NCBI GenBank assembly: GCA_950295325.1
Contig: OX485807.1
Coordinates: 44,110,440-44,174,439, forward strand
Direction of reading: 5' to 3'
Origin: Polytrichum commune
Lineage: Eukaryota > Streptophyta > Polytrichopsida > Polytrichales > Polytrichaceae
Length of the DNA: 64,000 nt
Part shown: in pieces, positions 2,429 to 64,000 of the stretch
Layout: every line of letters begins with the position of its first letter
Position numbering within the stretch: the stretch's first letter is position 1
Made by a program: the position numbers and the translations under genes
The notes under the pieces: model-generated
Told to the model about the DNA's origin: nothing
Seen by the model: only the letters and a program-made list of their open reading frames with translations
Databases searched by the model: none

Positions 2429-3101
2429 ACTGGCACCAAGTTGATACCATCCATTATGGACCCCCACTAAGCCTTTCAGTTACAACCTTACATGAATAAA
2501 GAGACTTGGTGCCTTAGTACATTGAACTTTGTTAATCGCCAGGTGCGAGAATTATGGCTAGTAGAGGTTGGGCAATAGATATTTACTTTATTTTATTTTA
2601 AAAGTATGTATTAAATGACCATGACACTTTGACATGATGAAGAACAAAAAAATATGTGAGGCATGGTGCATATGTGGTCTCAATTTGGAATGGCACATTT
2701 ATTGGCCTAATTATGGAATCCTATATGCACAGCTGCCTGGCTTTGGCAACTGCCACAGATGTTGCCGCAGCGGCAACGACTACGGCAGTTGCCAAAGCCA
2801 GGTGATCGTTATCATTGGCTTCTATACCTAATCTTATGCATCTTTCGTAGATAATTATACTCATTCCATCAAGTGCAACTACGTGTGAGAGAGGGTATTC
2901 CGAACAAGGTAAACCCTAAAGCCACTTGCGCTAAAAAGTTGAACTTGAAGACCATAGGTGGCTCATGCGGGTCTCTCTTTGTGGGCTTGCAGTGATGCAA
3001 TGGATTGGACTACCATTGCAAACATATGGAGAAACATGCGGGTCCGAAAGATAATTACGCTCGATTGACATTTTGTGTATTGTTTGCAAATCAAGATTGT
3101 A
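2429..3101. repeat. 673-bp direct repeat, copy A
   Basis: Near-identical to 3806-4478 at a constant offset of 1377 bp; only a few substitutions are visible. It contains a 67-bp palindrome at 2736-2802 with 19-bp perfect arms (CCTGGCTTTGGCAACTGCC and its complement) around a smaller GTTGCC/GGCAAC hairpin. A 65-codon open frame inside recurs in both copies but has no recognisable motif and is probably fortuitous. Confidence 0.85.
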
Positions 3102-3154
3102 GTCAAACTAAGTGGTGCGCTGATGTAATTAGAGTGGTTTACATGACTTGTGTC

Positions 3155-3489: not shown

Positions 3490-3805
3490 GGAGACTTGGT
3501 GCCTTAGTACATTGAACTTTGTTGTTCGCCATGTGCGAGAATTATGGCTAGTAGAGGTTGGGCCGTAGTGCATCCTCCTTTTTGTTTTTAAGAAACATCT
3601 ATTAAATGACTAGGGCACTTTCACATGAGTGCGAGAACAAAACAATATTTGAGGCTTGGCGCATATGTGATAGCAATTTGGAATGGCACAAAAATTTGCC
3701 CAATTATGGGGGACTATATGCACGGTTGCATGGCTATGGCAACGGCTACAGTCGCTGCCGCACAGACTGGCTGCGGCAACGACTGCAGCAATTGCCAAAG
3801 CCAGG
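3490..3805. repeat. Diverged third copy of the 673-bp repeat (partial)
   Basis: From the GAGACTTGGTGCC segment to the palindrome this stretch follows the same order of sequence as copies A and C but with many substitutions. Its palindrome (about 3727-3803) is imperfect. It directly abuts copy C, so the locus holds three related units of different age. Confidence 0.7.
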
Positions 3806-4478
3806 ACTGGCACCAAGTTGAAACCATCCATTATGGACCCCCACTAAGCCTTTCAGTTACAACCTTACATGAATAAAGAGACTTGGTGCCTTAGTACATT
3901 GAACTTTGTTAATTGCCAGGTGCGAGAATTATGGCTAGTAGAGGTTGGGCAGTAGATATTTACTTTATTTTATTTTAAAAGTATGTATTAAATGACCATG
4001 ACACTTTGACATGATGAAGAACAAAAAAATATGTGAGGCATGGTGCATATGTGGTCTCAATTTGGAATGGCACATTTATTGGCCTAATTATGGAATCCTA
4101 TATGCACAGCTGCCTGGCTTTGGCAACTGCCACAGATGTTGCCGTAGCGGCAACGACTACGGCAGTTGCCAAAGCCAGGTGATCGTTATCATTGGCTTCT
4201 ATACCTAATCTTATGCATCTTTCGTAGATAATTATACTCATTCCATCAAGTGCAACTACGTGTGAGAGAGGGTATTCCGAACAAGGTAAACCCTAAAGCC
4301 ACTTGCGCTAAAAAGTTGAACTTGAAGACCATAGGTGGCTCATGCGGGTCTCTCTTTGTGGGCTTGCAGTGATGCAATGGATTGGACTACCATTGCAAAC
4401 ATATGGAGAAACATGCGGGTCCGAAAGATAATTACACTCGATTGATATTTTGTGTATTGTTTGCAAATCAAGATTGTA
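3806..4478. repeat. 673-bp direct repeat, copy C
   Basis: Second near-identical copy of 2429-3101, with its 67-bp palindrome at 4113-4179. It ends 50 bp before the left end of the CACTA transposon. Confidence 0.85.
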
Positions 4479-4528
4479 TTTTGATAATTATATTAATTCC
4501 TCCAAAACATTGTGTAACCCAAAATTGT

Positions 4529-4557
4529 CACTACAACAGATTGGGTATTTTGTGACT
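4529..4557 (+). repeat. CACTA left terminal inverted repeat
   Basis: 29 bp beginning CACTACAACAG and ending TGTGACT, perfectly complementary to 20181-20209. It is followed by subterminal ATGACTG/AGTCAT motifs. Confidence 0.95.
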
Positions 4558-5347
4558 GAAATTTATGACTGCCTTAAGTCATAAAATCCCAAAATATGAC
4601 TGACGAGGCTCCGGATGAGGATGACGCGCGCGGTGACTGGGTCTAGTCATTACCGACGAGTCGCTTCGGACATGAGTCATATGAATATATACGGTTGTGG
4701 AGGCGTATAAAAGGACAGTTTCTACGATCCTCACTGCACGTGGGACATACCTTAACTAGCGTTGGAGTCAATGCCCTTTTTTGACCTGCCCGGGCAGAAA
4801 AAATACCAAACCGACGTGGAATGTGACTCCATGTGATCATGTTCTCTGCTGACGTGTAATATGACTTCCATGCGTCATAATTTTGCTGACGTGGCAGGCC
4901 ACGTGGAATGTGACTGCTAGTTTTTTGACTGCTTGTAGTCATGTTTTTTGGGGCGTTAGTCACATTTTCTGCGGGGATGACATTGTTATATAACGTTCTG
5001 TAGTCATATTCTTAGTAACATGTTCTGCACAATGTGACATGATGGAGTGATATTCGCGTAGATGGAGAGTCACATTGCGTAGTTCTTTGTGCGTTGTGAT
5101 AACTGTATTGAGTTAGATTCGTATTACTTGTAATTCTGATTGTCAGTCACATTTCGTGCCACATCCCAAGCAATGACGACATATTCAAGTCATGCGCTAC
5201 ATGACTGAGCCAAGTAAGAAATTGAGCACACAAATTGAGTACATAAATTTCAATAACTTGAACGACTTTATGTAGTCCATGTCTCCAAGCATATCCAAAT
5301 GTGTTCATCTTTCCTACATGACCCCTAAATGCGTAAACTACCGAAAT

Positions 5348-8300
5348 CTAAGTGGCTTGTTGAGGTTCCAGCGGGATAGCCTTCAGTGCTTCCACTGGCC
5401 ACTTGGTGATGGACTTCAGTGCATCGCCCAGACGCAACATCGGAGGATCGTCGTCGTTGTTGCCCTCGTACAGCAACACGGACTCTGCTCCCGGCTCGAT
5501 CGAGGACACGCTAACTGATACGTTGCCCTCCTCAATGAGGCGCCTGTGGAGTGAGCCTCTTGCAAGGTTCACGATGATGCCTTGCGCCACTACGTTCGCC
5601 TTGGCCTTGTTCTCCTCGTCCAGGTCAAACAATGCGACATTGGACCCCGTGGCCAACGGCAAGGGTGCGTCCTCCACCATCGCATTAGCCGTCTCCGACA
5701 ATACGGTGGTGACCTCTTCTGCTTGTGTCTGCAGCAGAAAAAATAATTATCAACAATCAAAACAATCCGCGTGGAGTTACTGGAGCTTCAATACTCAATA
5801 TATGACCTCACACTAGGCCATGATTGCATAATATGATAGAATATACTCATATACCGTACCGCAGTCATCAGATATGACAACAATGAGTAATATAATTGCG
5901 ACCTATAACTGAACATAGTCATATGACTGGACATAGTTATATAACCCATGACTAGCCATATTCATGTGACTGAACATAGTCATATTGCCTATGACTGACC
6001 ATAGTCATATGACTGGACATAGTCATATTGCCTATGACTGACCATAGTCATATGACTGGACATAGTCATATTGCCTATGACTGACCATAGTCATATGACT
6101 GGACATAGTCATATTGCCTATGACTGACCATAGTCATATGACTGGACATAGTCATATTGCCTATGACTGACCATAGTCATATGACTGGACATAGTCATAT
6201 TAAAATGACCACAAAAAGTAACACATTCGCCTAAGGTCCTCATATTGCTTCGTGGAGTGACATACCTATGCGGACATGTGTTATCAGCATTTTCCTTGTT
6301 TGCGATTGGAGTTAGAACCAAATAGAAACAAAAAATATCCAAGAGCAGCTTACATGTGTCGATGAACCTACCAGGTTCGCAGGTACCGACGCTAGATGGA
6401 CCTCCTTAGTCAGATACGCCAAGCAATATTCAATGTCGGATTACTTGCGGGCCAATCCTTCGAATGACCCGCAGATTCTGCCCAGGAAGTCATCGTTGGG
6501 GTTTAGGGGATCCCAGCGCGGAAAGTTTAGGACATTTGAGGGGGGGGAACGCGCCGTCGCCGTTGTATCCCAATCGATTTGGAGACACCGTGTTGAGCCG
6601 TGCGTGGGGTCCGGAATCATATCAAATAGATTGCGGAGGTCTCTTATTGGGTTCTGGAGGGGGTAAGTCCTCCCCCACAGAAAGCTCCATTGAGCTGTCG
6701 TTCCCGATACAAGAAATGCGCCTCCAACCTCTAGTACGTTCTGCTCTACGGGGGACCATATCCCGACATCAAAATTAGAGAGCAACATTGACAAAAACTT
6801 GTCGCAGTCGGTCATTTTTTTGATTTTTACATTCAGGTCCTTTGCGTGGTGGATGACTAGATCCGGGCCCCACTCTCTCCTATCGTGCAGAGGTCTGATA
6901 TCGCAAAGAAGTCCTACAACATTCAACACTATAATTTTCCTACGCCCGGAGTCCGACACTCTTACCGAGGGGACCTTCGGGGGTAACGGCTGAATCTTCG
7001 GAGCATTGCCAGCCTTCTTCTTCTTCTTCTGTGGACTGCCTCCTTTATGTGCCCGTTTTGTCGGCCTCTTCGTCGCAGGCGCCTCATGGTCCTCGTCCTC
7101 CTGCAAGTCCACGGGTTGATCTTCACTCGCTCCAACCGTCATAACCTGGGAGGCCACGACCCAATAACACTCTGGCGTTAGAGTATGACTCGGCCCTGTC
7201 ATACACGACTGCTTGTGATAACCTCATGTCATGTTATATGACTGCCACTTGTCATGTTTATGACTGCATTGAGTCATATACTATGACCGCCTATAGGCGT
7301 ATAACATGACTGCCTAGACTCATGTGATATGACTGCCTTCAGTCATATCATGTGATATAATCATATGACTGTCCAATGTTGAGGCCACATCAAAGACACA
7401 AAGCTTACACGTAAGTATAACTATCGGACAAGTATAATGTGCATATGACATGAATGCCAACCTCTTTCTGTCGAGCCATTGCACGCCGGGTAGGCCGTGC
7501 ATCGTGTTCCGCCAATAGCTTCTCCGCTTCGCCCTTCCTCTTCTTGGCTATGGGTTTCTTCTTTTCAATGATGGGTTGGCAACCCATATCTGCTAGGGTG
7601 TTACGCAGGGGCTCCGATGCCGCGGTCGACCCAATATGCCCGGATTCCGCCGACCTCCCAGTTGCCTGCATGTTCTAATGATCCACATGAGGCGTGTATT
7701 AGTGAACGATCCTAATGCAAGACATACAACATTGCTGAAGCAAAGGTGTTCCATACATGTATTCGACTGGAGTACTAGAGGGTATACAGACGCAACCTTT
7801 TCGGCGGTTACTTGGATCATGTCGACTCCCGCTTCCGCCGTGGCTGGCGGTTCCATGTCCGTGGCCGTCGTTCGCTTCTGCACCTCCAGCAGAAGCTGCT
7901 TCATCATAGCCTTCACATCTTCCATCTCCCCCTTCATGCTATCCTGGAAGTCGTGCAGCTCTGTCCGCGTAACAAAGAGGGCTCTATCTCCCGCTCTTGC
8001 ATTTGGGAGTGGCCCTCTGGATGACGATGACCGGCCCCGTCCTGATTTCCCGGGTGTCGCTAGCTCGGTTTCCACCTCCAGCTGCGTAGGGGGCCGCTCT
8101 AAATCTGCGGCCTGTGAAAGGAGCAACTGTGGATCCATGAAAAATACGTAAACATACTAAATATGACTATGGAAAGTCATATTACTTAGAATATGACTAG
8201 CTGAAGTCATATTACTCAACGTATGGCTAGGTGAAGTCATATGACTCACAATATGACTAGGTGAAGTCATATTACTCAACAAATGACTAGGTGAAGTCAT

Positions 8301-11160
8301 ATGACTCACAATATGACTAGGTGAAGTCATATGTCTCTAAATATGACTATGTGAAGTCATATTCAGGTAGCGTGTGACTATCTATGGTCATACGACTTCC
8401 GGTGTGACTATGTAAAGTGATATCATTCATTATATGACTGAATTATATGACTGCAGGTTGTCACATATTTATGTTTGAATGACTTGCACACAAAATCACT
8501 TACCAGTCTAGAGCGCACCTCCCCTTCGGACCTTCCAGAATACGACAAGGTCTGCACGGTTTGCCGTGCGGCTTTCATGCACGTGGCTTCCGCGATTTTG
8601 TCCGTCCGGGAAATTAACCTCTTGAAGTTGTCGACGTGCGCCTTCTTCACATACGGTGGGAGCGGGCCACAACTCTCTATGAGTTTCTTCATGTTCGACC
8701 TGCGAGTGCGCATCTGCTGCCGCAAAATCTGGAAAAAAATAGCTTCAGGCACGTCTCCGAGTCCACCACGGTACTCGAACTGTGCGGCCATCTTTTCTTT
8801 AATTGCCAACAACAAGGGCCGTGGGTGTGCCCTGAAGTTGTCGACGCTCCAGTCGAGGTCGCGAGAGTACCCGCGTAGTCGCGTCAGCCAGTCAAGCCTG
8901 TGTATCCCTGTCGGGCACCCGGCCTCGTCGACCTCGACCCACAAACGCTGACCACCACTGGAACTGTGCAGCTCGTCACTCTTCTTCAAGGACCGCCTAA
9001 GGTTCTTCAACTTCGACTGTCGAAGCCGCGCGCTTCCGTCGCCGCCTTCAACCTCTGCCGTCCGGCCAAGGCAACGCACCTTCTCCCGAAGTTCCGTTGG
9101 ATCGGCTCCTTTTTGAGCCATACGCCGCAAAATGCTTACTTCCCAGAGCTCCAGCTCGTCAAGGAGCTCGTTACGATGCCCTACGCCTATGTCTGCCTCC
9201 TCGATGTCCGCCGATGCTTCGTCGGCGTCCATCTCACAAGCCCGGAGAGTATCTTGCATGTCTTGGGACAGCAGGATATCCTCCTCCTCGACCGCCTTGC
9301 CCTTCTTTCCGCTAGATTGCAACGGCCATGACCTGGGTTCATTTGCATTACCCTACACACCCAGTCGTACAGTATGCTATATGAAACCGTGGAGTCACCC
9401 TACATGACTGTAGTAAGTTACATGATTGCATCGAGTCACACTACATGGCCGAGTGGAAGGATATTATTGTATAATATGACTGGACAAAGTTATATGACTA
9501 CCTATAGTCATATTACATGACTGCACTAAGTATCATGTTCGGGGTCAGATTATGACCTCCTGGAGTGATATGCATATACGGACATATGTTATCAACATTT
9601 TTTCTATATGTGTTTGGAATGAGACCCAAGTAACGCGAACGACTAAATGCGTTTCCAAGTGCAAGAAACTACGGAGATTTATGTTTTTACCTTCCGCCTC
9701 CTTGGTCTGGGCTGCTCGTCCTCGGAAGTCTCCTCTTCGTCCTCTTCATCCTCGTCATCATCGAGGTCCGTTTTAGGAAGTTGTTTTTTTCCTTTCGCTC
9801 TAGTGGTCACACCCCAGCCACCACCCTGCTCTACAAATGGGCCCGGCTCTCCCACAGGCATGCCACGGCTGCTCTCAAAAACACGCGCAACCTCATTCGA
9901 AATCATTTCCAAAACCGGCAATGTAATTGCCGGGAAACTAGCAATTGTGCGAAAAACTTCCACTTGCATGCCATCAGGCAGATTAGCTATTTTTGTTATC
10001 AAATTGACAAGTACATTGTTCATTTCGGCATTTTTGGTGGAAGTCGCGGGAACCACACTGTTCAGTACGAGCGTGAGTTATTAGACGGACATTACATCCC
10101 ACAAAAATTGTAAGGTAAACGACTGCCAATGCTGAAACATGACTCAAATGAGTCATGTGGTCTCCACATTTTTTTGACTGGGAGGAGTCATAATCATGAA
10201 ATTGTTCACAACATGGATTGAGGATGGTTGAAAATTAAAATTGAAATTGAATGTTATGAATCTATTGCAGAGTTGACAACACATACACATTGTCAACACA
10301 TTGTCAACACATACACCACACATACATGTTGTCAACACATACACATACACATACACAACACATACACGTACACATACACATACACAACACATACACATTG
10401 TCAACACATAAAATTGAGTTTGAACCTTTGCAAATTCATCTTACGAAAGGAATATGTAACAAACACATACACGTGCTCTAGCTAGTAATAATTGAGTTCC
10501 AATGATTCAAACTTTCATTATCATCACGGGCACCAACCAATCATGCATGTGGGCAGCTTAGTTAGCCCTCACTACATTGTTACTCAATATGACACCCGAA
10601 ATATTTAGCCTATGCATTATGGTTTCAATTCCCTTTCAAATTTGGTAACTCTGGACTGTTGGGTAGTATGGAATTATTCATTCATTATGTGATGTCAAAC
10701 AAAAACATTGTTCATACACATGATCATAAACCCACGATCATAGACAACCAATAGAAGCCACATATGATGCACAACAACATGGATGTTCAAAGAAGTTACA
10801 ATATGTTTAGGACTGGGAAGACTCACACTCACAAAAATGTGACTGGACTGTGTCATACAGACCTTAAAGTATGACTACAGGGATTCATAATACTATGAAC
10901 TATGACTGCAAACAATCATGTCTTCAGCAAGTTGTATGCAATTTATGACTACAAAGATTCATAAAAGTTTCAAACTTCATAAGCAAAGCTAGCGGTAGCA
11001 GGTCCGTTGTATTAGGGTTTGGGGTTACATACCCGGGGTCCTCAGGCCTCTTGAAATGAGAGGTCCCAATTGGTGTCAGACCGAGTTCCCTCAGCTTCTG
11101 GTTGTTGGCCTCGATGTTTTTCTTCCGTATCCTCTCATACTCCGGAATTTCTTCCTCCAT
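5348..11160 (-). CDS. TNPA-like CACTA protein with FCP1-like domain
   Basis: Seven-exon model on the minus strand: 11160-11033, 10057-9691, about 9304-8504, 8111-7797, 7665-7462, 7145-6372 and 5728-5348. Codon phases agree at every junction; the exon 3 acceptor is the weakest. Total 990 codons. Exon 1 has the basic YERIRKKNIEANNQKLREL segment seen at the start of many plant CACTA-associated proteins. Exon 2 ends in an acidic run followed by a basic run. Exon 3 carries a WVEVDEAGCPTG block like Ptta/En/Spm TNPA-type domains. Exons 4-5 are basic linker. Exon 6 has a KKKKK basic signal, then an FCP1/NIF-like HAD domain (about residues 675-860). Exon 7 matches the DUF8039-like tail (VVAQGI ... 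LGDAL ... WP). An in-frame TAA at 6443-6441 would cut the product at 839 residues unless it is spliced out. It diverges from the transposase gene. TNPA-type proteins bind subterminal motifs in transposition. Confidence 0.75.
5961..6201. repeat. 43-bp tandem array of TGACT/AGTCA motifs
   Basis: About six copies of a 43-bp unit (CATATGACTGGACATAGTCA...) repeat at exactly 43-bp spacing (6006, 6049, 6092 and so on). Every unit holds inverted TGACT/AGTCA pairs. It lies in the intron between TNPA-like exons 6 and 7. The same motif occurs at the transposon ends, so these may be internal binding sites for the element's own DNA-binding protein. Confidence 0.85.
8158..8440. repeat. About 30-bp tandem array of TGACT/AGTCA motifs
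   Basis: Eight or so imperfect units of ATATGACTAGGTGAAGTCAT with a spacer of about 10 bp, in the intron between TNPA-like exons 3 and 4. The core motif matches the 43-bp array and the element ends, but the spacing differs, so the array arose independently. Confidence 0.8.
10269..10412. repeat. ACACAT-type microsatellite
   Basis: Long run of ACACATACAC units with interspersed TTGTCAACAC, inside the first intron of the TNPA-like gene. Confidence 0.8.
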
Positions 11161-12231
11161 GATTCTGCAAAACCATAATCCACATTAGTGTTCACTAGAA
11201 TACAAACAGGTTGTATACATTTTTTATGTTTGTTTTGTATTCCCTACCAGTCCTCATCGATGTTTTGTGGATGCTACAGGTTAGCGGATAAGGGATTGAA
11301 CAACCAGCTCCTACTCAACAAATGCCAAGGGAGTTGCGAATATAGGTGAGGTCAACTTTCTCCACAGGTATTCGATTGTGTGTGCGGGGTTTTAGCATGA
11401 TATTTAGGTGTTTGACTAAGATAAGTGACCGGATTAGAATAACTTTCATTCGTGACATGTAGAATAATACATAGAGACCCGATTTTGTGTCCGAAATAGG
11501 GTTCATCATTTTTCAATTTAGATGTCGTCTTTCAAAGCACAAGTTTTGAAGTTTTTGAAGTATTATGAAATATTTAAACTAAAATTACTCTCCTTGGAGA
11601 TGGGAGAGTGCACAACCTTGGAGGGTGAGTGGAAGTGGTGGAGAGAGGGAAAACCCTGAAAAGTTTAGGAGAGAGGTCTACCTCTGAAAACCCTGCTGCC
11701 ACGTTACCTCCCGGAATAAATTCAAATGTGGTGCCGAGGTGCACCCACCACCGAAGTCGGGGGGTGGAGGAAGCTGCACCCACCAGCCAGCAGCTCCGAC
11801 ACCGAATCTGGTGTCGATTTAAACTCAGAAATGGCCAATGTATACCTGTCTCCCGAAACCCACCTGCTGCCGCAAAATCCACTCCCTCTCTCGAAACCCA
11901 CTCCCTCTCGGCACCCACCACCCACCACCCACCACCTCACACAACCAGCTCTCTAGATACATGCACTCTCACCCACCACCCACCACCCACCACCTCACCC
12001 AACACAACTCTCACAAAACCCTATCACCCACCACCTCACCTGAATGAGCCAAATGTATCGAGGCTGCGGAGATTTCGAGGCAGGTGCCGAATCCTTCGAG
12101 TCTGCCACCGAAATCCAAAGAGTCTGCCACCCTAAACCACATCAAATTTCGCGATCCCTAAACCATGTCTTCGACACTGAATCTGCCTCTCACCTGAATC
12201 AGCTATAAATTAAATCTGAATCCTCAAAGTT

Positions 12232-12535
12232 GTGACAGATGAGGGAGGAGGAGAGCGAGGGGATGGAGGGCGGGGGAGGGAGGGAGGGCGGGGGAGGAGG
12301 AGAGCGAGGGATGGAGGGCGGGGGAGGGAAGGAGGGCGGGGGAGGGTAGGAGGCACGAGTGAGGGACTGCGGCCGAGGGAGCGCGTGCGGGGGAGGGGAC
12401 GAGGAGGGCGAGGCAGGGACAGGGAGGGGGGGAGGGACAGAGAGAGAGGGAGGGAGGGAGAGAGAGAGAGAGAGAGAGAGGGGGAGGGGGAGGGAGGGAG
12501 GGAGAGAGAGGGAGGGAGAGAGAGAGAGAGAGAGG
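12232..12535. repeat. GGGAGG/GAGAGA purine tract
   Basis: About 300 bp of almost pure purine on the plus strand, changing from GGGAGGGCGG blocks to GAGAGAGA. It is low complexity and could form triplex or quadruplex structures. No gene is supported. Confidence 0.85.
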
Positions 12536-13969
12536 TAAATTATAAAAATAGACCTCTTTAAAATAGATCAGCAACTTTGATTTGCACGTAAATAGTGAAA
12601 TTTTACATTTTTTTATAGTAACAATTATTGGGCTATGAAAAAGTCATCAAACATTGTCGTGGATGGATGAGTTCATCCATCAACCAAATTAAAGCCCAAC
12701 ATTCTCTTTACTTTTACATCCTCAACATTTGAAATTACTTTTACATTCTCAACATTTGAAATTACTTTTACATTCTCAACATTCGAAATTACTTTTACCA
12801 AAAAAATATATATGGGCTTCATGACACTTACTTATAACCGGGGTATATGACTCCCCTGGAATCGATTACGATATATTTACGGTATATATCATAGGTCCAC
12901 ACTTATCCATGTGATCTTTTATACCAATATAAGTTTATCTCTATCAAATGAAGAATTGTCCAGTAGGTCAAATATTCATTTTTTGTAAGGGGATTCTAGC
13001 TCTTCTCCCTAATTTACTTTATAAGGCATGAACTTGACGAGGGATTCGTGGTGTCTATGTAAACTCATCCATTATGAAATTGACATCAAATTACACATCA
13101 AAGTCCCTAAATTAATCTTATGGAGTCTAGTTGGAATAAATCGACCCTCAACCTTAACGGGGACCTTTTTTAAACTAAATCCCCTTCATCCACATTGGAT
13201 CACTTGACATTATACGGACATAATAGTGGTCAATTATTGCTTAATATAATACCTATTCACCCTTTGAGATTGTATTTGGTACCTTCTTAATATTCAAGTG
13301 TTTTGTTAACAAATGAAACCCATCCTTCAGGTCGGTGTTCATTGAGTCTGCTTTGCACTTCTAGGACGAGTTTTCATTTAGGAGCGAAAAGAACTGTTGA
13401 TGTTGAAATGGTCCCTTGGTACCACCTTTTCTAAGTATGTAAGGTAGATGGGCTTAAGTGGCTCCCTTCTTTAATCGGACCCCTAGATATGATTGATAAT
13501 TGGTTCGGTGAGGATCATCAAAAAGAAAATATCATAAAGAAATATGTTTAGAAAAGATTGGAATACGTCTTCAAAATTCAAAGAACTACTCTACATTGAA
13601 CAATGAACACAATTGGGAGAACCCGCGTATTTAGTTAAGAAATCAACAAATGTTATGCATTTCTCATGACTATAATTAAATCAAATGAAAGTAATGCTTG
13701 GTGTTTGCTCGGCTTTGAAAATAGGAAACTTTAGCTCACTATGTGTGAGCTCCCATATATAATTGTGTACACTCAATGACCAAGAAGATACATATTGTGC
13801 ACAATGGTCATATCATACAATCATATGCCACGATTTATCAAACACGTTCATGAATGTTGTAAAAGAAGATTCATACAAAGTGGATTGGGTTCATGATGTT
13901 TCATAATATTCCTTCAAGTTGCTTCACGGCTTCGGTTAGAGTATTTTCACGCCTTCTAGTCATGGGCTG

Positions 13970-14215
13970 ATGACTGTCATGTCTTATATGACTGACATGT
14001 GTTATATGACCCCCGTGTGTTCTATGACAACCAGTCATATGACTACCCTGTGTCATATGACTGTCATGTCTTATATGACTGACATGTGTTATATGACCCC
14101 CGTGTGTTCTATGACAGCCAGTCATATGACTACCCTGTGTCATATGACTGTCATGTCTTATATGACTCCCCTGTGTTATATGACTGCCTCGATATATTTG
14201 ACTTCCCTTAGACCG
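13970..14215. repeat. 87-bp tandem array of TGACT motifs
   Basis: Nearly three copies of an 87-bp unit (starts at 13970, 14057 and 14144), each built of about three shorter ATATGACTGNCATGTGTT-like subunits. It lies immediately upstream of the plus-strand start codon at 14322, where it could act as promoter or protein-binding sequence. Confidence 0.8.
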
Positions 14216-14321
14216 TATTAAGCCACATAGATAGGTGACTGTGTGCATACGAGCACTTCCTCCTTGTAAGGTATTCCCATATCACAAATTGACCCAGCGC
14301 GTATGCCGTGCACACCACAGG

Positions 14322-15220
14322 ATGGCAGGAGGGGAGGTCGAAAGCTTGAAGCATCTACAGTTATGGCAAGAAGAAGAGGTCCAAGCAGATGCAATGCGGC
14401 TATCCAAGTACCCATGCCCCTGCATGGAGTGTGCAGGAGGGAAAGTCCTCGATCGAGCCACAATTCGAAAGCATCTTCGCAGCAGAAAAAGGGACCCCGT
14501 GTTTACAGCCTCTATCTTGGTGAGTCATTCCATGAAACGACTTGTGAATGAGCGTCAGCGGGTGGTCCTGCTTTGAGTGAGTTTTCATCTTTGTGTACAT
14601 GAATTTTGTAGGCCCGATGGAGACCCATTGTAAAAGCTGCTTGCAAGACATCCCTGAGAAAGTTTCTAGGAGGACACGAAATGCCTTCACAGTCAATGCC
14701 AAACACTGCGTCTGCAAGAGTACGAGCCTTGCAGTCATGGGGGTCAAACGTGTATGACGGACAGTGGTGTGACGGGCCCATCCCAAAACTTATAAAGTTT
14801 TCATACTGGAATAGAGAATGGGAAGTAAGGGTGTCCAACTTCCCATTCATGGGTTGGGGTCTCTTTGCACTTCAACCCGCCAAAGAGGGAGAGGAACTGC
14901 TTCCATTTGTAGGACCACAATACACCAAGGGAGAATACAATGCCTTGAAGAAGGCACATCCTCGAGTGAAGTCATATGCGATGCAAGTTGAGCCGGACTT
15001 GTACATCGATGGAGATGTAATGAAAGGGAATGTCGCATGCTTCATAAATAGTTCCATAGGACGCAAAGAAATAGGAAATGTGGTGTGGGAATTTCGCATG
15101 TTGCCAAAACCCTGGAACAAACAGGAATGGGGGTATGTAATCACCATGGCCACAAAGGACATTATGGTCGGAGAAGAGTTGTATGCACATTACTCTTTGA
15201 ACCCGCACACCACATTGTAG
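14322..15220 (+). CDS. SET-domain protein encoded inside the CACTA element
   Basis: Two exons, 14322-14519 and 14612-15220, joined in phase 0 across a 92-bp intron (TTG|gtgagt ... ttttgtag|GCC); 268 residues. Exon 1 has a CPCxxC ... HL pattern like the N-terminal zinc-binding region of TNP2 transposases. Exon 2 carries a SET fold at about residues 140-262: GWGLFA, then GEELLPFVG, YIDG, GNVACFINSS, NVVWEF and a closing DIMVGEELYAHY. SET domains usually methylate lysines of histones or other proteins. The usual NHSC is NSSI here, so the His and Cys are missing while the Asn and the C-terminal Tyr remain; activity is uncertain. The frame is intact although the neighbouring transposase is broken. 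A role in chromatin around the element is my inference. Confidence 0.75.
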
Positions 15221-18200
15221 GCTGACACCCATTAGTCCACATTCGGAATGACTAAAGTGTGCCATGTGTTCACTAACATGACTACACGAAGTCATATTTT
15301 GTTTTGACAAAATTTTGTATACATGTCCAGACCACGGTATACATGTGTACGTGGAACATGACCAATTTTTTACATCCAATGCTTGTATTTGTATGGTGCA
15401 TGAAATTTCTTTTACCTAACACACTCTTGTCTTCATAATCGATGAACATCCCCCCCCCCCCACGCATGTTACAAGTTCATGTTATATTCGGCGTTTCATG
15501 ATTGCCCCTCGTAGATACATTATTCATTTTATGACAAAATCATGTAACACAGAAGTCACAAATTTATGACTCATCCATGTGATACAATGTTACTTGTGAT
15601 TGCTCCTTGTCGTTTTTATACATTTGTATATAATATGTGCACGTTATATACAGTCCGTGTTCTATGATCGTCATTGTTATGAGTCCTTGTCGTATGTTTC
15701 TGCCAAAGCGAAAATATATAACGTGCGAACAAATTTATCACTATCTGCAGGACGAGTACAGCCCGATTGACTTGTTCTCCCATGCACCCCGGATTGGGCA
15801 AAGAAGCCAGACATACCCTAACACAAACAATGGACAAGAAGGAGAAGTTGAGGTTCTACGTATGGTGGCAGAGTGCTTTGGCAAGTACGATGACCTCAAA
15901 TTTGATGGACATGAAACCGAAGCCACCATACATGAGGGACTCGGGGATGCATTGGTTGAAGACGATGAAGGGGAGGATGGTTTCACAACGAAGGACAGTG
16001 AAGGTAGCGAGGGGGAAAGGGAAGAAACGAATGACCCCATGGAAACAAGAGGGAGTACGATGAACAGTGAGGACCCCACTGGGGTAGACCACCAGAAGCT
16101 CTTATGCGAAGTTGGAACTCCACTGTATGAGGGAAGCCCCTCGAACCGTCTCACATCGACACTCTTGATACTATTGTGTTGCACCACATTCGCTGTACCA
16201 AACAACTTTGTGGATGAGTTGTTGAAGTTGTTGAAGGAGACAATTTTACCCAAGGACAACACAATACCGAAATCATTTAACGAGGCGAAAGGCTTGTTGA
16301 TGAAGTTGGGGTTGTCCTACAACTCAATACATGCGTGTAGATATGGATGTTGTTTGTTTCGGAAAGAATTGGAGAATGCAACGGAGTGCCCAACATGCTA
16401 CAAATCGCGCTTTGTAGAGAACTCCGGTACAATTCCAGTCAAAGTTTTGAGACATTTTCCCTTGATTCCTCGTTTGCGAAGGATGTACAGCTGCACACGG
16501 ATCGCGGGCCTAATGAAGTGGCATGTAGGTGGGAAAAGTAAGGACAAGGTGATGAGGTCCGTGGTGGACTCGAAGGCTTGGGACCACGTAAATAATAGGT
16601 GGCCATGGTTTGCGGAAGATGAACGGAACGTTAGGCTTGGCCTTGCACTGGATGGCGTAAATCCATTTAGGAACCAAAGTCTCAGCCACTCTACTTGGCC
16701 CGTGGTCATGCTAAACTACGATCTCCCCCCTTGGTTAGTGACCAAAAACTTCTTCATGATGCTTGCGCTAATCATACCAGGAAAAAAGAGTGTAAGGGAC
16801 AGGAACGTGGATGTGTACATGGCACCGTTGATTGAGGAGCTCCAAGAGCTTTGGAAAGGGATCGATTGCTTGGACGGATCGCAAGGAAACCCCAAAGAGA
16901 AAACATTTAAGCTACATGGCATGCTTTTGTGGACGGTGAATGACTTCCCGGCGTACGGTTTGATTTCGGGGCAAGTAACAAAAGGACATAGGGCTTGCCC
17001 CGTGTGTGGCCCCAACGTGGCAACACAGCGTTCCAAAGCGCTGAAAAAAAATGTTTACCTTGGGCATAGACGACAACTGCCAATGACCCACCAATGGAGA
17101 CGACAAAGGTCCAATTTTGACGGGCAGCCGGAGATGAGACCACCGCCAAGAAGGATGAGTGGTCGAGAGCAATTGCGATATGCGAACGAGCGAGAAGAGT
17201 GGACGAAAAAACACTACAGAAACCAAACTGGGCAGACGACAGACCCCGTATACGAACATGGAGTGAAGAGGAGGACATGTCTATATGACCTTCCATACTG
17301 GAAAGTACGTGTTTCTTATTATGAGAATTAAGGGAGTGGACGTAGTCACATGATTGCATATAGTAATATTGTTTATGAGTATTATGTGAGTGGACGTAGT
17401 CATGTACAGTCACATGATTGCACGTAGTGATATTGTGATTTGCTCCGGAGCATTTCTCACTGGGTCGAGTCATTGTGCAGGATCTTCTAATTCGACACAC
17501 GTTGGATGTTATGCACTGTGAGAAAAACATCGCTGAGAATGTGATGAAAACCATATTTGGAGAGAAGGATACACTTGGAGTTCGTCTGGACATGAAGGAG
17601 GCGGGTATACGCCCGCATCTTTGGCCCGTAGCATGAACAAAACCCGGTAGTGTGATTCTACCTCGATCCTCGTACGTTATGACGAAAGAAGAGCGTGAAG
17701 TCTTTGTGGAGCAAGTTCGTGCACTGCGAACCCCACTCACTATGTGGGACAGTTGAAGAAGCGCGTAAACGTGGATGGGCAAATTAAAGGCCTGAAATCC
17801 CACGACTACCATGTCCTCGTGCAGCAAGTGTTGGCACTATGTGTGCGCTGCACAATGGAAAAGGAAGTACGGACATCAATAATAATGTTGAGCCGTGTAT
17901 TCAGGAGGGTGTGTGCTAAGTCCATTGATCCTGCAACAATACAGGAGATGAGGTGTGAAGCGGCCATAGCACTATGCATGTTGGAAAAAGAATTCCCGCC
18001 ATCATTTTTTGACATCATGAGCCATTTGGTCCTGCATCTCGTGGAGGAAGTGGAAATTTGTGGACCCGTACATACACGTTGGATGTACCCTATTGAGAGG
18101 TACCTGAAAACTCTAAAAGGGTATGTCCGAAACCGTACTCGCCCAGAGGGTTGCATGGCTGAAGGCTACGCCATAGTAGAGGCATTGGGATTTTGTACGG

Positions 18201-19553
18201 AGTATATGCAAGAATATACAGTCACCACTCGAAGAGTGTGGGATGACAAAGAAGACCCATCAATGTATGATGAGATCCTCGAAGGTGGCGGGCGGGCGGG
18301 CGCGTCATCTCCCATCCGACCTTCGACAATGGATACATGAGTTCGTGGTGAACAATGCGGCACCACTGGAGGAGTGGAGGAGGTGAGTTCACATTTTAGT
18401 GGAAGAACCTTAAATGCACCACCTCTCTTAGAACAACAGTACAGACCATACGAACTATAACAAAACACATCTTTTGTGACAAAAAAATATGACTGCAGTC
18501 AATCATATTTTGGGATTTATGACTGAGTACAATCACAAAATGTAGTCGTAAAATATGCATTTCGTTGTAGTTATCGCGACACAGTACGACTACTGTTGTA
18601 TGCAAATATGACCACCCTTAGTAATTTCAACAAGTCACGGGTAATGATGTGTTGGGTTGTATCCAAAATGCAGGAAACACGAGGATGATATGTCACGGCG
18701 GGAATGTGAGCGGCACGAATACAGGCGCAAGAAGCGGAAGGCACGGGTAATGTACCCAGCGGAGCTGCGCGACGAGGATTTCCACATTTGGTTTCCAAAA
18801 GCAGTGATGCGCACCATAGAAGAAGGCACGAAGGAGGTACACGAAGACGTTAGGGCCTTGATGTTACCTCCATCGGATGCAGCGAAGTCGTATCGATCCA
18901 TGTATGCGTTTGGAAACCACATCCGTGTCCGAAGCGCACAGGCGCAATTGACAACGATGGACTCTGGGGTGGCCGCAACATTTCGACAAGTATGTCGCTC
19001 GGGCCTGAAGGACACAAATCCAAAGGCAGCGGAGTTGGAGTATGTGGGTTGGGTGGAGGAAATCCTATCTGTGGACTATGGATTCTTCGAGGTGGTGGTC
19101 CTCTATTGCAATTGGGTCGTTGCAAACATTAAGGGAGATGGGGCGACGATGAAGCGCGACGACTATGGTTTCACCAGTGTAAACTTTGACAGATTGATCC
19201 CGTTCTCAGCACAATCATTTGCATTTCCTCTCCACATCGAACAAGTTTTTTTTGCACCTGATGTAGCGAAGTGTGGATGGGAAGTTGTTTTACGCAAGGA
19301 ACCGAGAGGGGTTCGGGTATTCTCCAAACAACAAAGAACGGATGAAGTACAGTGCATAGCACTAGGTAGGACTTCTGATTTTCCCGGATTACAAGTGACG
19401 GCGTTTCAGGACGATATTGTACCGAAAACACCCATATTGGGCGATGCAGTGGAAGTAGGGCCAGGAGTGGTTGCCAAGGCACTAGAATGTCTAGAGGGAC
19501 CGGATGACGCATCGGTAGATGACTCTGAGCACTGCGTATCGGACGGTGATTGA
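14322..19553 (+). pseudogene. TNPD-like CACTA transposase (TNP2, DUF4218, DUF4216), mutated
   Basis: Probable exons: 14322-14519 (shared with the SET transcript), 15751-17304, 17481-18382 and 18674-19553, with good GT/AG signals and matching phases. Exon 2 is the TNP2 catalytic-type region (RLGLALDGVNPF, YDLPPWL, LLWTVNDFPAYG, HRACPVCG). Exon 3 gives LDVMHCEKNIAENVM and a DUF4218 block (GLKSHDYHVLVQQ, YPIERYLKTLKGYVRNR). Exon 4 is DUF4216-like (FGNHIRVRS, KRDDYGFTSVN, EQVFFAPD). Three lesions lie in exon 3: a TGA at 17634-17636 where a sense codon is expected, a one-base shift near 17733-17735, and a compensating shift in a GGGC repeat at about 18287-18303. DUF4218 therefore sits in a displaced frame and no full-length product is expected. 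The role is excision and insertion of CACTA elements. Confidence 0.85.
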
Positions 19554-20180
19554 CTTCCCATCCGTGCAAGAAGTTGTATAAATGAAACTTAGGTTTTTTA
19601 TATATTTAATTTCAATTATATACATGTTCAATTAGTCTCTTGGCAATAGTAAAAATCAAATTTCCTCCCCAATTTCCCCCCTATACTCCCTAAAACATCA
19701 ATCAATTAATTATTCAATAAATAAACATGGGGCATTCCCAATTCTCATTGCCGTTCATACTATAACACACAAAGTACTTAATTTTGACCAATATCTGTCA
19801 TTATTAAATAAATACTCCACACCATAATACTAGATAATGAGTCACGGGGCAAAAACACAAGAGGCCCATCTAGGGCAGCCTGAATTATCAAGGGCTGCCC
19901 AAAAGAAGGAAAAAAATGGTCCTAGTCAGAATGTGACTGAAGAATATGACTCGCAGAAAAATGTGACTGCCACACATGACTGGGCGTCCACCATAGACGT
20001 TCCCCGTCGTTCCCTATAAAGGCACTCGTCGTTCCCATACGCCGTATACAGTACATTTGCCGAATACGACACAAAAATATGACTGCGAGTCATATTTTTG
20101 AATTTCGTACCCGACAAAGGTCGAGGCCTGCCAAAATGTGACTGCATGTAGTCACCAGTCATCCCCAGTCATATTTCCCT
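19554..20180. other. CACTA 3' subterminal region
   Basis: AT-rich sequence after the transposase stop, then several TGACT/AGTCA motifs from about 19830 to the right terminal repeat, mirroring the left subterminal region. No coding region is supported. Confidence 0.7.
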
Positions 20181-20209
20181 AGTCACAAAATACCCAATCT
20201 GTTGTAGTG
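20181..20209 (-). repeat. CACTA right terminal inverted repeat
   Basis: 29 bp ending CTGTTGTAGTG, exact inverse complement of the left end, followed by the TGT target duplication at 20210-20212. Confidence 0.95.
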
Positions 20210-20212
20210 TGT

Positions 20213-22031: not shown

Positions 22032-23671
22032 ATGGAGGCTGCGAACAATGAAATGGTCCCAGTCCCTAATGTAGAGCAGACGAGAGTTGTGTATGTGGAT
22101 GGGCATCTACTTTTGAAGTATGTGGAGCGACGACTCGGCAGAGGTGACCATTTTAAGGATGTGGCAGGGACGTTAGGAATTGGCAGAAATATTCTTAGGA
22201 GGAGGTTGCAGCTGCTTGGATGGAGGGGGGTTTATGATACTCCTAATGTGGACTCCGGAGACGTCATAGCAGCCATTCGCAGCGAAGTTCCAATTCTGCG
22301 AGCCGGAGTGAATTGGGGTATCCGTAGTGTGCAGTGCAGACTTCGACTGTCAGGACTGAGGGTCGGCAGAGAGGCGGTCCGGGATGCGCTGAACACAATG
22401 CACCCTGAACATATGGAGCGGCGCCAACTCGGCCGGCTGAGAAGGGGGCAATACACCATCACGAAGCCCATGATCTTATGGCACATGGACTGTGAGACCT
22501 TCTCGATCTTGCTTTTTGAAATATCTTGTTTAAGGGACACTTGAGGTGTTTACGCACATTCATGCACTCTTCATGTCGTTGCAGCATATGACAAGTTGGC
22601 GAAGTGGGGAATCAAAATCCATGCGGGCATAGATGGAGGGACACATTTTGTGTTATGGGCTCGTGCTGCAGTGGATAAACGACAAACCACCATATATGAT
22701 GCGTATGCAGATGCCGTTCGCAGATATGGCCGTCCCCTCCGATTGAGATCGGACTTTGCGGCGGAGCACAACATGGTAGAAGCGGACATGAGAAGGGGTC
22801 GACCCAACATATTCCGGCCATTTCTGCGGGGCTCGTCTGTGCACAACCAACGTATCGAGCATTTTTGGAGGCAAGTATGGACGCATCTCATTTTTTACTA
22901 CAAACACTTGTTGACGCTTTTGGGCCGCCATGGTTTCCTGAACCTGGTTAACCCCGTCCAAAAGGCGTCCATGGTGGCTGTTTTCCTCCCGGCCATCCAA
23001 CAGGACCTTGCGAACTTTGTGGCGACATGGAACGTTCACAGAGTGAGGAAGATCAATCAAAATGGCCGGCACTTGGCGGGCCATGTACCAGATTGCATGT
23101 TCCAGTCATGGGAGCGCGAAATGGGGTAACACACCTCCTTTGCCTGCACATTGGGTTTGTTTGTTATCTGCGCAGTACTGGAGTGTGTAGTTGTGAATTC
23201 ATGAATGTTGAATTGATTGCGTGAGAACCCTTGACACACGCCGGGTAGGGCTTGCCCATCGCTGATATGCAAGTTTGCACATGAATGCGCAGGCTAGTGT
23301 TGCCACCATCTGTGGACGATGATCCTTGGAATATGGAGGACTCGGGCCACGACGACCTGGAGGTGAATAGAAGACCGTATGCACCCGACCCGCCGCAGCC
23401 TGCATCCTTGTTGGCCGAGGACATTGAGCACGTTCGTGACGCAGCATACATGATTGGCGCTGCAGGAATGCGTGGGAGCTTGCAGAGAATGTACAATCTC
23501 CACGTGGCCCTGACATATGAGTGTTTGCATTATGTTGATGAAGGTGGCCCTGACCTGCAGTCTCATTGTGATATGGTTATGAGCCGGGAAGCATTGCCAG
23601 CAGATAGACGGACAACATGCAGACTTCTGCAAGCTGCTCTCCAAAGGAGGAATTCTTCGCACAGTGGTTAA
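22032..23671 (+). CDS. DDE integrase-like protein (WHxD ... SVHNQRIE family)
   Basis: Three exons, 22032-22491, 22585-23125 and 23293-23671, phases 1 and 2 matching, 459 residues without stop or frameshift. The N-terminal part has a helix-turn-helix-like region (DVAGTLGIGRNILRRRLQ) and a second helical block (WGIRSVQCRLRLSGLRV) like the HTH_21 region of IS3-type transposases. The catalytic core reads WHMD spanning the first intron, then KIHAGIDGGTHF, then LRSDFAAEH, then SVHNQRIEHFWRQVW: all three acidic residues of a DDE retroviral-integrase fold are kept. Near relatives I remember are uncharacterised 'integrase core domain' proteins of fish, cnidarians and fungi, possibly the IS3EU group. 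I found no terminal repeats, so it may be an immobile or domesticated gene, or an element whose ends I missed. The last exon is acidic and unrecognised. Confidence 0.8.
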
Positions 23672-28889: not shown

Positions 28890-30955
28890 TTGGTGAAAAC
28901 ATATAATGCTAAGGTTATGTGGCACCTGCCGCCAATACACATCGCACATTGCAACATAATGTCGGGGAGAAAACAAAATCAAGAATAAATTCAGGGAACC
29001 TTGATTATACATGCTTTGAGAACGAATGTAGTCCAACTAATACTCTACAGATGTGATGTTCACTTATAGCCTAGACTTGTACTCTGTAGTAATTCACTTC
29101 TGGAACTCTTTATGCCAGTCTGTTTACTATAGACACCACTGATTTATATACATCTGAAGCAATTCTAATATGACTGGAAATTCATTCATAAATCTGACTC
29201 TACTAAATACCTACTCACCCCCTCCTTACTTGTCGCAAAATTTTGGGCCTAGGAATTACATGCCTAGTTATAACGATGAAGAGGCTTTCAGTTACGACAT
29301 GCCCCACAGTCATATTCTTTCTCACACAACGCACATATAATGCTGAGGTTATGTGGCACCTGCCGCCAATACACATCGCACATTGCAACATAATGTCGGG
29401 GAGAAAACAAAATCAAGAATAAGTGATGGGAACTGTGATTAAACATGCTCTGAGAACGAATGTCGTCCAACTAACACTCTACAGATGTGATGTTCACTTA
29501 TAGCCTAGACTTGTACTATGTAGTAATTCACTTCTGGAACTCTTTATGCCATTTTCTTTACCATAGACACCACTGATTTATATACATCTAAAGCAATTCT
29601 ACTATGACTGAAAATTCATTCTTCAATCTGACTCTACCCCATACAACTCACCCCCTTCTTACTTGTCGCATAATTTTGGGCCTAGGAATTACATCTCTAG
29701 TTATAACGATGAAGAGGCTTTCAGTCACGACATGCCCCCCAGTCAAATTCTTTCTCACACAACACACATATAATGCTGAGGTTATGTGGCACCTGCCACC
29801 AATACACATCGCACATGGCAACATAATGTCTATGGTAAACAAAATCAGGAATAAGTGTAGCTAACATATGATTAAACATGCTCTGATAACGATTGCAGTC
29901 CAACTAAAACTCTACATATGTGATGTTCACTTATAGCCTAGACTTGTACTATGTAATAATTCACTTCTGCATCTACTTTTTATGCCATTTTGTTTACCAT
30001 AGACACCACTGATTTATATACATCTGAAGCAATTCCACTATGACTGGAAATTCATTCTTCAATCTGACTCTACTAAATACCTACTCACCCCCTTCTTACT
30101 TGTCGCATCATTTTGGGCCTAGGAATTACATCTCTAGTTATAACGATGAAGAGGCTTTCAATCAAGACATACCCCAGTCAAATTCTTTCTCAGACAACAC
30201 ACATATAATGCTGAGGTTATGTGGCACCTACCACCAATACACATCGCAAATTGCAACATAATGTCTATGATAAACAAAATCAGGAATAAGTGATGGGAAC
30301 CTTGATTAAACATGCTCTGATAACGATTGCAGTCCAACTAAAACTCTACATATGTGATGTTCACTTATAGCCTAGACTTGTACTATGAAATAATTTACTT
30401 CTGCATCTACTTTTTATGCCATTTTGTTTACCATAGACACCACTGATTTATATACATATGAAGCAATTCCACTATGACTGGAAATTCATTCTTCAATCTG
30501 ACTCTACTAAATACCTACTCACCCCCTTCTTACTTGTCGCATAATTTTGAGCCTAGGAATTACATCTCTAGTTGGGCACACGATGAAGAGGCTTTCAGTC
30601 ACGACATACCCCAGTCAAATTCTTTCTCACACAACACACATATAATGCTGAGGTTATGTGGCACCTGCCACCAATACACATCGCAAATGGCAACATAATG
30701 TCTATGGTAAACAAAATCAGGAATAAGTGATGGGAACCTTGATTAAACATGCTCTGATAACGATTGCAGTCCAACTAAAACTCTACATATGTGATGTTCA
30801 CTTATAGCCTAGCCTTGTACTATGTAATAATTCACTTCTGCATCTACTTTTTATGCCATTTTGTTTACCATAGACACCACTGATTTATATACATATGAAG
30901 CAATTCTACTATGACTGGAAATTCATTCATAAATCCGACTCTACTAAATACCTAC
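28890..30955. repeat. Tandem array of about five 434-bp units
   Basis: The landmark GTTATGTGGCACCTGCC recurs at 28914, 29348, 29781, 30216 and 30653 (spacing 433-437 bp). Units share sequence throughout, including TATAGCCTAGACTTGTACTA and GGAATTACATCTCTAG. The 71- to 86-codon frames seen in each unit are repeats of one another and not credible genes. The last unit is cut off near 30955, where the right copy of the 450-bp duplication begins. Confidence 0.9.
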
Positions 30956-30969
30956 TCAGACAACACCCA

Positions 30970-44751: not shown

Positions 44752-46731
<1,980 letters not shown>

Positions 46732-62192: not shown

Positions 62193-64000
62193 TGTCTGCA
62201 AAAGCACAAAGCAGAGTACTGGTCGAGCTCAAAACCAATCATTATTGGTGTAACTTATCATAACCACCTCTGTGTCCTACTTTGTTGAAAGAAATCTGTT
62301 ACCACGAGAACATATTTACCCATGAACTCCGCATGTTTACCCATGAACACTACATTACACATCTGCTTTAGTGTGGCCCACACCATTCATCATCGACCCT
62401 CGTTGATGGTCTTGCAATCTCTGCGTGGCACCTAGAGAGGGTGTCACATGACACTTGGTGCTACATGACAGCTCACGAAGACCGCTCTAATTAACATGGC
62501 ACACCAATTGAAATGTCACACTAAATCATATGTTCAGCGTAGTGGCCTCAGACAGATATGACTTTATGCCACATCGAACGCTTCCCTGGTCAATATCAAG
62601 GACTTCCGGGTTCCACAAGTAGGGGCAACCACTCTACTCATGAAGGGTGCTTCATCCCATAAGTTGCCGAAGGTATGAATATGTAAGCAAACATGACAAC
62701 ATCCAGAGATAAAACTTACCTTCACTTGTATAGTATCCAAAGCCCAGTCTCCTTTACTCCAAATATGCACTCCTTTAAATTTGTGGGTTTGTCCAAGGCT
62801 CTCGATGCTCAAGTTAAGTTTACTCTTCAGTATCTGACTCGTGAACCTGACCACCAACCCAGTTGTAAGTATCTGGTTGTGCGATTGCAACATTCAGTGC
62901 CAATATTGAAGAACCAAGTAAAGAAATCACAGATCCACACAGCAACTTAAAGAATTCATGCCCTTTGACATCGGAAGGACCAAGTAGAGAGAGCCTCAGA
63001 ATGGGCAATGAACACCAGAGGAGTCACTAACGAAGGTACCAATGTGGGCCTTATAATTATGTGGTCACTCCTCTTAATTGGACATCTATGTTTGAGTGGT
63101 ATATGGCAAGGCTTGTAGTTATGTATAGACACCAAAAAAAGACATGTTACAATGACATTGGACCCTTCACTGACTGAAGCGCTAGTCGATCCTCCATACG
63201 TCGGAGATAACACCATCGTAACAATTTCAAACCATGTTGGAAAGCCTAAAACCACCTTCCAAGATACCTCTACCTTGAACAACTCCGCATCCACATAGCA
63301 GTGCCCTTCTTACATCCACGACAGCAATGCCATCAAAAAGTGTAGAAGTCAAATCCTTCTAACTTCATACCTTAGCCTTCAGAAATGCCCTGCCACAATG
63401 TGCTCCAGAAAGGATCACCGAACTCCACCAACTCGACATTCAGGAACAGGTGCATCATCAGCCTGGGCTTGATGGAGGAAATGAAACTTAGAGAATGTTG
63501 GCAAATCAGGGCAGAGCGAGGGATGTGCATAAGCTCCTATTACGCATCCAGAACGCGAAGCAGGAAGCCTTTCAGCATTGATAGAACGTAAGTTAAAGTA
63601 CACAGAGACAGAAAGGCGGAGACACACAGCGGAGACACAAGCGAGAGTGATGAGCAGTGGAGGAGAGACTAAACGACAAACGAAGAGCTAGGTCTAGCTC
63701 AGGCTTCGGGTGCCAGGCTGCACCACTGAGGCGCCTGATCTCATGGGTGAGGGAGTGGGCAAGGCGCCTGCCTCTCTGCCGTCGGATGGCGCCAGGCCCA
63801 GCCACATCCACGGCTTGCAGGCCCGGGCTGGGAGCTCCAGCGGGCAGCCCCGGGGTTAGAGGCCGGGCAGCCGGGCAGCGCAGCGGGCTTCGGGAGAAGG
63901 GCGGGGATGGGGGTCGATACCTGAGCCGACACTGGCTCCGCCTTGGAGGTGGGACCCAGGAAGGTCCAGCTGGCAGTCACCGCTTTCCTGTTAAATCTCA
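62193..64000 (-). promoter_or_regulatory. Probable 5' UTR intron and promoter side of the adaptor gene
   Basis: No coding region is supported. An acceptor at 62197 implies an upstream non-coding exon. A CT-rich stretch on the minus strand at about 63590-63680 looks like a plant 5' leader. From about 63700 to 63960 the sequence becomes strongly GC-rich and CpG-rich, unlike the rest of the window, as near a transcription start. The assignment is an inference. Confidence 0.35.

Follow-up and report, generated by a model that had tools for sequence, protein, structure and literature searches.

The window, i.e. the whole stretch of 64,000 nucleotides of Polytrichum commune DNA that was analysed, contains a complete CACTA/EnSpm element in which an exon encoding a SET domain lies between the first exon of the transposase gene and the exon encoding its Tnp2 domain. 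We consider it plausible, with a probability of about 0.55, that through this exon, used as an alternative last exon, the element encodes a chromatin modifier that would act on element copies and counter their silencing. The element, its termini and the exons of its transposase gene are as follows.

4529..20209, no strand: complete CACTA/EnSpm element, 15,681 bp, with perfect 29-nt terminal repeats (TIRs) and a TGT duplication
4529..4557, plus strand: left TIR, 29 nt, starting CACTACAACAG, 100% complementary to the right TIR
20181..20209, minus strand: right TIR, pairing with the left TIR, 100% complementary
14322..14519, plus strand: exon 1 of the transposase gene, 66 codons ending in phase 0, encoding an N-terminal domain that resembles Transpos_assoc
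14520..14611, plus strand: intron 1, 92 bp, GTGAGT...TTGTAG, predicted splice sites
14612..15220, plus strand: SET exon, ending in its own TAG stop (15218-15220)
15047..15055, plus strand: NSS replacing NHS (exon residues 146-148)
15751..17304, plus strand: Tnp2 exon (Transposase_21), starting in phase 0 at the acceptor CTGCAG/GAC, to which exon 1 could be joined instead
17481..18384, plus strand: transposase exon(s) with DUF4218 (PF13960, E 4.8e-38 in 17699-18337); the 3' end, 18384, is an assigned boundary
18673..19553, plus strand: transposase exon with a weak DUF4216 (PF13952, E 2.3e-6, 28.5 bits against a cut-off of 30.6, from ORF 18648-19550); the 5' boundary, 18673, is assigned

The element belongs to CACTA/EnSpm: its TIRs have a CACTA/CACTG-type start (CACTACAACAG), it is flanked by a 3-bp target duplication (TGT, at 4526-4528 and 20210-20212) and it encodes a Tnp2-type transposase (PF02992, DUF4218), though one that is broken in this copy. 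This transposase is Transposase_21 (CACTA) and not of the Harbinger type. An earlier note on this DNA had described the SET exon as cargo between perfect terminal repeats, and the exon does lie inside these TIRs with their TGT duplications. A lone TGTTGTAGTG at 59523 resembles the right end of the element, and there is no second CACTACAACA within the 64-kb window. By eye, a stretch of ~650 bp occurs twice, at about 2430-3110 and 3808-4480, each copy having a 67-bp core made up of two inverted arms of 32-33 nt that are 88% complementary. The window also contains an ANTH-domain gene (61107-62228, minus strand), Oxidored_FMN exons (44752-46421, minus strand), a tandem array of a 434-bp unit (28899-30958; 4.7 copies, 93% matches) and, outside the element, plus-strand ORFs at 22050-23129 that perhaps belong to another mobile element; an integrase core domain (rva_4, E 2.1e-35) is encoded by the second of them.

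Translation of the SET exon from 14612 to 15217 gives 202 amino acids without stops. Residues 81-194 match positions 1-104 of the 105 in the PF00856 (SET) profile, with an E-value of 4.5e-10 and a score of 40.3 bits against a cut-off of 22.4. The earlier note had recognised a SET domain from GWGLFA, then GNVACFINSS, then DIMVGEELYAHY, in SET order, and the Pfam search that it proposed thus bears the identification out. Exon 1 was matched by BLAST at E ≤0.005 by the N-termini of 25 Tnp2 homologues among 204 fetched proteins (best match P0167, E 5.6e-9), and it is therefore the transposase's own N-terminal exon. Transpos_assoc is precomputed by Pfam for 14 of these 25 homologues; exon 1 itself scores 21.4 bits against this profile, under the cut-off of 27.7. 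A U-box match to overlapping residues, at 22.1 bits barely above its cut-off (21.4), was rejected as spurious in view of the 25 matching Tnp2 N-termini. Its Transpos_assoc-type domain is presumably DNA-binding.

Exon 1 ends at the donor TTG/GTGAGT and the SET exon begins at the acceptor TTTTGTAG/GC at 14612; joined in frame they encode 268 residues. The SET exon (14612) and the Tnp2 exon (15751) both start in phase 0, the phase in which exon 1 ends, and in the close homologues P0086-P0089 (4/4) the sequence Q/DEYSP is found at the same acceptor point as in the Tnp2 exon. The possibility of joining exon 1 to the Tnp2 exon in equal phase was absent from the earlier note and alters the gene model: the SET exon, with its own stop, is now predicted to be an alternative last exon. 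The join between the SET exon and the element's own first exon, which that note had put forward, stands as a phase-0 join, and the same order recurs in the distant SET homologue P0081. Directly upstream of its SET exon, P0081 has 28 exon 1-like residues (61% identity), which end at residue 66, i.e. the last residue of exon 1, at the donor. P0081 reads uninterrupted from the exon 1-like part via a short stretch into the SET exon; this short stretch begins with V, and the DNA there therefore starts with GT, like an intron donor. By eye, the SET part of P0081 is out of frame after VSNF. Some homologue ORFs as called (e.g. P0002-P0004, P0009, P0012 and P0014) start with Met near the start of the exon, and in those cases SET may have a single-exon gene of its own. 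This copy retains an intact Transposase_21 exon (PF02992, E 1.4e-72, ORF 15634-17328); the neighbouring transposase sequence is decayed, as had been claimed, with an in-frame TGA at 17634-17636 and then a frame change before about 17750.

In the mechanism that we propose, one pre-mRNA would be spliced two ways. Spliced to the Tnp2 exon, exon 1 would give the transposase; spliced to the SET exon, which ends in a stop of its own, it would give the 268-residue protein with the same presumed DNA-binding N-terminal domain. This shared domain would guide the SET protein to element copies, targeting being perhaps aided by the element's other protein and by arrays of an ATGACT/AGTCAT motif. At these copies the SET protein would write or protect an active histone state, and the transposase gene would stay expressed. 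The arrays, and the candidate gene for the other protein, are located as follows.

5902..6201, no strand: tandem array of a 43-bp unit, 7 copies, ATGACT/AGTCAT motif
8159..8363, no strand: tandem array of a 30-bp unit, 6.8 copies, ATGACT/AGTCAT motif
13970..14188, no strand: tandem array of 87-bp and 18-bp units, ATGACT/AGTCAT motif, immediately 5' of exon 1
5348..11184, minus strand: candidate second multi-exon gene, six ORFs within the element
5348-5746, 6441-7223, 7593-8156, 8423-9352, 9679-10077 and 10924-11184, minus strand: the ORFs of this candidate gene

The units of the three arrays differ, the ATGACT/AGTCAT motif is common to them, and all three lie outside the assigned exons. Across the element the motif occurs 108 times, where a first-order Markov control predicts 11; in the flanks of the element the numbers are 39 observed and 33 expected. 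In the plus-strand unit (13900-20180) there are 12.6 motifs per kb of noncoding DNA versus 0.96 in exons, and the density rises to 29.9 per kb between 13900 and 14300. Two motifs fall in the SET exon (3.3 per kb), above the other exons, though this is a small number. Tandem motif arrays in noncoding parts are a feature of the VANC system of VANDAL elements, which belong to the MULE superfamily. The ATGACT arrays may equally well serve to bind a TnpA-like protein. No Pfam match reached its cut-off when the six ORFs of the opposite strand were scanned in unspliced form, and DUF1985/DUF287 (VANC) was not among their matches. One of them, ORF 6441-7223, has a sub-threshold match to an NLI-interacting-factor (FCP1-like) phosphatase (E 0.008, 16.3 against 21.8 bits) and no credible match in the PDB. 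It contains FDVGIWS, and DxD, which we take to be the usual catalytic motif of NIF/FCP1-like phosphatases, is apparently replaced by NVV; its product is possibly a second captured regulator. The more complete proposal, in which alternative last exons would yield either the transposase or a sequence-guided chromatin writer from a shared DNA-binding exon and the noncoding DNA would carry arrays of the binding motif, i.e. a self-targeted histone modifier, is one that we advance tentatively, as possible rather than probable. If true, it would be a silencing escape distinct from the VANC and TET solutions.

The association of SET with Tnp2 in other elements speaks for our reading. It also bears on a rival one, in which the SET protein serves transposition instead: by marking or reading target chromatin, or by methylating either the transposase or a different protein, it would bias the choice of insertion sites or control activity. 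Linkage was judged by a proxy, in which SET and Tnp2 homologues were matched by identical longest-contig size and the same source, the contigs themselves being unread; 83 of the 84 SET homologues (P0016 is without a contig) were compared with 120 listed of 1,249 Tnp2 matches. This gave four same-source pairs on three contigs, involving four SET homologues and three Tnp2 homologues among the 120 listed, where chance would give 0.32 same-source pairs overall (P 0.04 for at least two) and 0.0012 pairs above 20 kb. For SET P0048 and Tnp2 P0104 the longest contig is 23,147 bp in both cases. The contig shared by SET P0017 and Tnp2 P0114 is 2,846 bp, which fits a 192-residue SET, an intron of about 500 bp and a Tnp2 ORF (roughly 2.7 kb, an estimate) and is not decisive alone; that shared by SET P0054 and P0065 with Tnp2 P0095 is 598,999 bp, too long for tight linkage. 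Matches at 3,705 and 1,825 bp were dropped, as their sources differ. In a FastTree phylogeny of 121 Tnp2 sequences, rooted by midpoint, the Tnp2 of the window and the three linked Tnp2 sequences group together in a clade of 35 sequences (support 0.998) that the unrooted tree likewise shows as a split; the SET link is known for just 3 of the 34 other members. Fused Transpos_assoc-Tnp2 ORFs number 0 of 35 inside this clade versus 25 of 86 outside it (Fisher 1e-4), in a count that left out BLAST matches with E >0.005 (P0108, P0109, P0131 and P0169). Because the linked Tnp2 sequences share a clade without fused ORFs, an ancestral uninterrupted Transpos_assoc-Tnp2 gene was probably split once by the SET exon in the ancestry of the clade, the exon then being kept; we infer that the direction of change was from fused to split. 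A role in transposition draws on this history, i.e. on SET having apparently been kept with the transposase through about 50% divergence, and on the fact that exon 1 can be common to both proteins. However, the SET part is without a transposase domain and terminates at a stop of its own before the Tnp2 exon, and we regard this role as rather unlikely.

Another rival reading is a catalytically dead SET domain that serves for binding or that competes with the methyltransferases of the host. The altered NHS motif pointed out in the earlier note is real. In an alignment of 53 of the 84 SET homologues with the window, position 147 is S in 46 of the 52 homologues with a letter there and H in none of the 53; as the alteration is common to them, it is therefore not a lesion of this copy. 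The residues around it are kept: N146 in 48 of 52 aligned homologues, Y122 in 51 of 53, Y194 in 46 of the 47 with a letter there, and the G-N pair in most of the 53. We take Y122 and Y194 to be the active-site Tyr residues of SET. The protein thus has the SET fold and profile and the conserved Tyr residues of a SET-domain lysine methyltransferase and lacks the NHS with His, and because this His is missing in all 53 homologues aligned its putative methyltransferase activity is uncertain. The missing His is what speaks for a dead domain; the retention of N146, Y122 and Y194 and the good conservation of the SET core argue against it, as does PRDM9, which is without NHS yet active. We hold this reading to be more doubtful still than a role in transposition. 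The structure model falls below pLDDT 50 at residues 147-153 and is hence uninformative on the NHS site; trimming the alignment gave a second model of lower quality (mean pLDDT 52.5), which was set aside. Inspection by eye showed neither a pre-SET nor a post-SET cysteine motif in the SET protein. In profile comparisons with solved SETs, Set1 H3K4 methyltransferases came closest (E 6.5e-7 to 4.3e-6), followed by ASH1L, although rank among SETs does not fix specificity, and MLL1, ASH1L, SET8 and SET7/9 were tied as fold matches to the model. PRDM-type SETs, considered on account of the missing His, were not among the structure and profile matches listed, which excludes nothing. A LegAS4 match (NCBIfam) of 33 bits against a cut-off of 550 was rejected as a generic SET match. 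Residue 143, the Cys of GNVACFINSS in this copy, is Gly in 19 of the 22 homologues with a letter there in the alignment of longer homologues described below, and also in P0001, which is 96% identical to this copy.

The protein database contains 84 distinct SET homologues with identities from 96% to 32%, 23 being found at E ≤10 by a search with the spliced protein and 83 at E ≤0.001 by a profile search; P0084, from the liverwort Riccia sorocarpa, has 32% identity over half of the query. At least 150 residues are present in 30 of the 84, and 51 have 131 or fewer; the database consists of called ORFs, so decayed copies are under-represented, and one homologue, P0065, is visibly frame-shifted by eye. 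In an alignment (A1) of the window with 23 homologues of at least 150 amino acids each (24 sequences), the median pairwise identity is 0.54, and conservation is 0.73 in the SET core, 0.72 in the preceding GQW..GPIPK module and 0.40 in the N-terminal tail. A neutral simulation without indels was run 2000 times at each level of identity; the frame was still open in 54 runs at 75%, in 1 run at 50% and in 2 runs at 41%. These results support selection on the SET exon at the protein level, resting on the diverged, longer members. The open frame of this copy beside its decayed transposase, which the earlier note had read as a hint of selection or of recent capture, is a weak sign in itself, as the transposase exons have about 2 lesions in 3,339 nt, a rate at which an exon of 609 nt would remain free of lesions with P about 0.69. 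The selection part of that claim survives through the protein-level conservation; recent capture does not, as the SET family appears to be as deep as its transposase clade, i.e. it is not a recent one-off capture. For the DNA of relatives there were 28 pattern matches in genome contigs and 74 in viral contigs, none confirmed. It is very improbable that the exon is a passive host fragment, caught by chance and functionless in the element: CACTA elements do capture host DNA (Pack-CACTA, in passages of the review PMC8616336), and the transposase of this copy is broken, but in diverged homologues the frame and the motifs are preserved, as are signs of exon 1 and of a Tnp2 neighbourhood. Least credible of all is a single protein with SET as an internal transposase domain spliced to the Tnp2 exon, which the position of SET between two transposase exons on the same strand might suggest, as the SET exon ends in a stop, a GT at 15217 leaves phase 2 against phase 0 at 15751 (by hand, donors not exhaustive), and precomputed SET is found in 0 of 120 listed of 1,249 Tnp2 homologues, although gene callers would split such a protein at introns.

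Our preferred reading thus remains that the element encodes a chromatin modifier by means of an alternative last exon, and it can be set beside known systems. To our knowledge, few transposons with chromatin-acting enzymes are known. The SET part resembles Set1/MLL-type proteins and ASH1L, the nearest solved SETs by profile, with MLL1 and ASH1L among the tied fold matches, but identity is about 15-25%, the His of NHS is replaced and there are no flanking chromatin domains here. One SETMAR chain matched at E 0.019; SETMAR is a host gene that joins SET with a captured transposase. Other host-transposase fusions with SET domains exist (PMC8616336), and in these, as here, SET and transposase sequence have been brought together; those are host genes with a captured transposase, whereas here the transposon carries SET. 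In VANDAL elements the targets of the anti-silencing protein VANC lie in varied tandem motif arrays, introns and terminal noncoding regions, according to passages of PMC5735166, and the element described here likewise repeats a short motif in varied tandem arrays of its noncoding parts; VANC has no SET, and its DUF1985/DUF287 was not among the Pfam matches of the six unspliced opposite-strand ORFs here. In Phytophthora, HarbingerS and MuDR elements are DNA transposons that likewise encode a SET-domain protein, a methyltransferase (Kojima and Jurka 2014, Repbase Reports, cited in passages of PMC12730594), but they are of other superfamilies and have an oomycete host, whereas here a CACTA/EnSpm element of a plant has SET between two transposase exons; the distinction is drawn from their description. 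Fungal EnSpm elements with a TET/JBP dioxygenase, for which escape from silencing has been proposed (a proposal that its own paper calls not experimentally validated; passages of PMC12730594), share with this element the CACTA/EnSpm superfamily, the 3-bp duplication and a chromatin- or DNA-modifying cargo with a proposed silencing escape; their cargo acts on methylcytosine and not on protein, their host is fungal, and the passages cited describe no sharing of an exon. Our anti-silencing proposal for the SET protein would be of the same kind as that for transposon-borne TET/JBP. We found no report of a SET-bearing CACTA element in the open-licence literature (subscription papers, preprints and Repbase may differ), and the passages of the review PMC8616336 cover Pack-CACTA and host-transposase SET fusions with no SET-bearing CACTA. 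SET in HarbingerS/MuDR and TET/JBP in CACTA/EnSpm are thus already in print in the passages cited, and what is apparently new, relative to the open-licence literature, is SET in CACTA. A SET gene kept through deep divergence in CACTA elements, with a first exon that can be shared with the transposase, would provide a concrete, testable example of a transposon that sets its own histone marks, and if so the arms race between transposable elements and their hosts would extend beyond the TET/JBP and VANC solutions.
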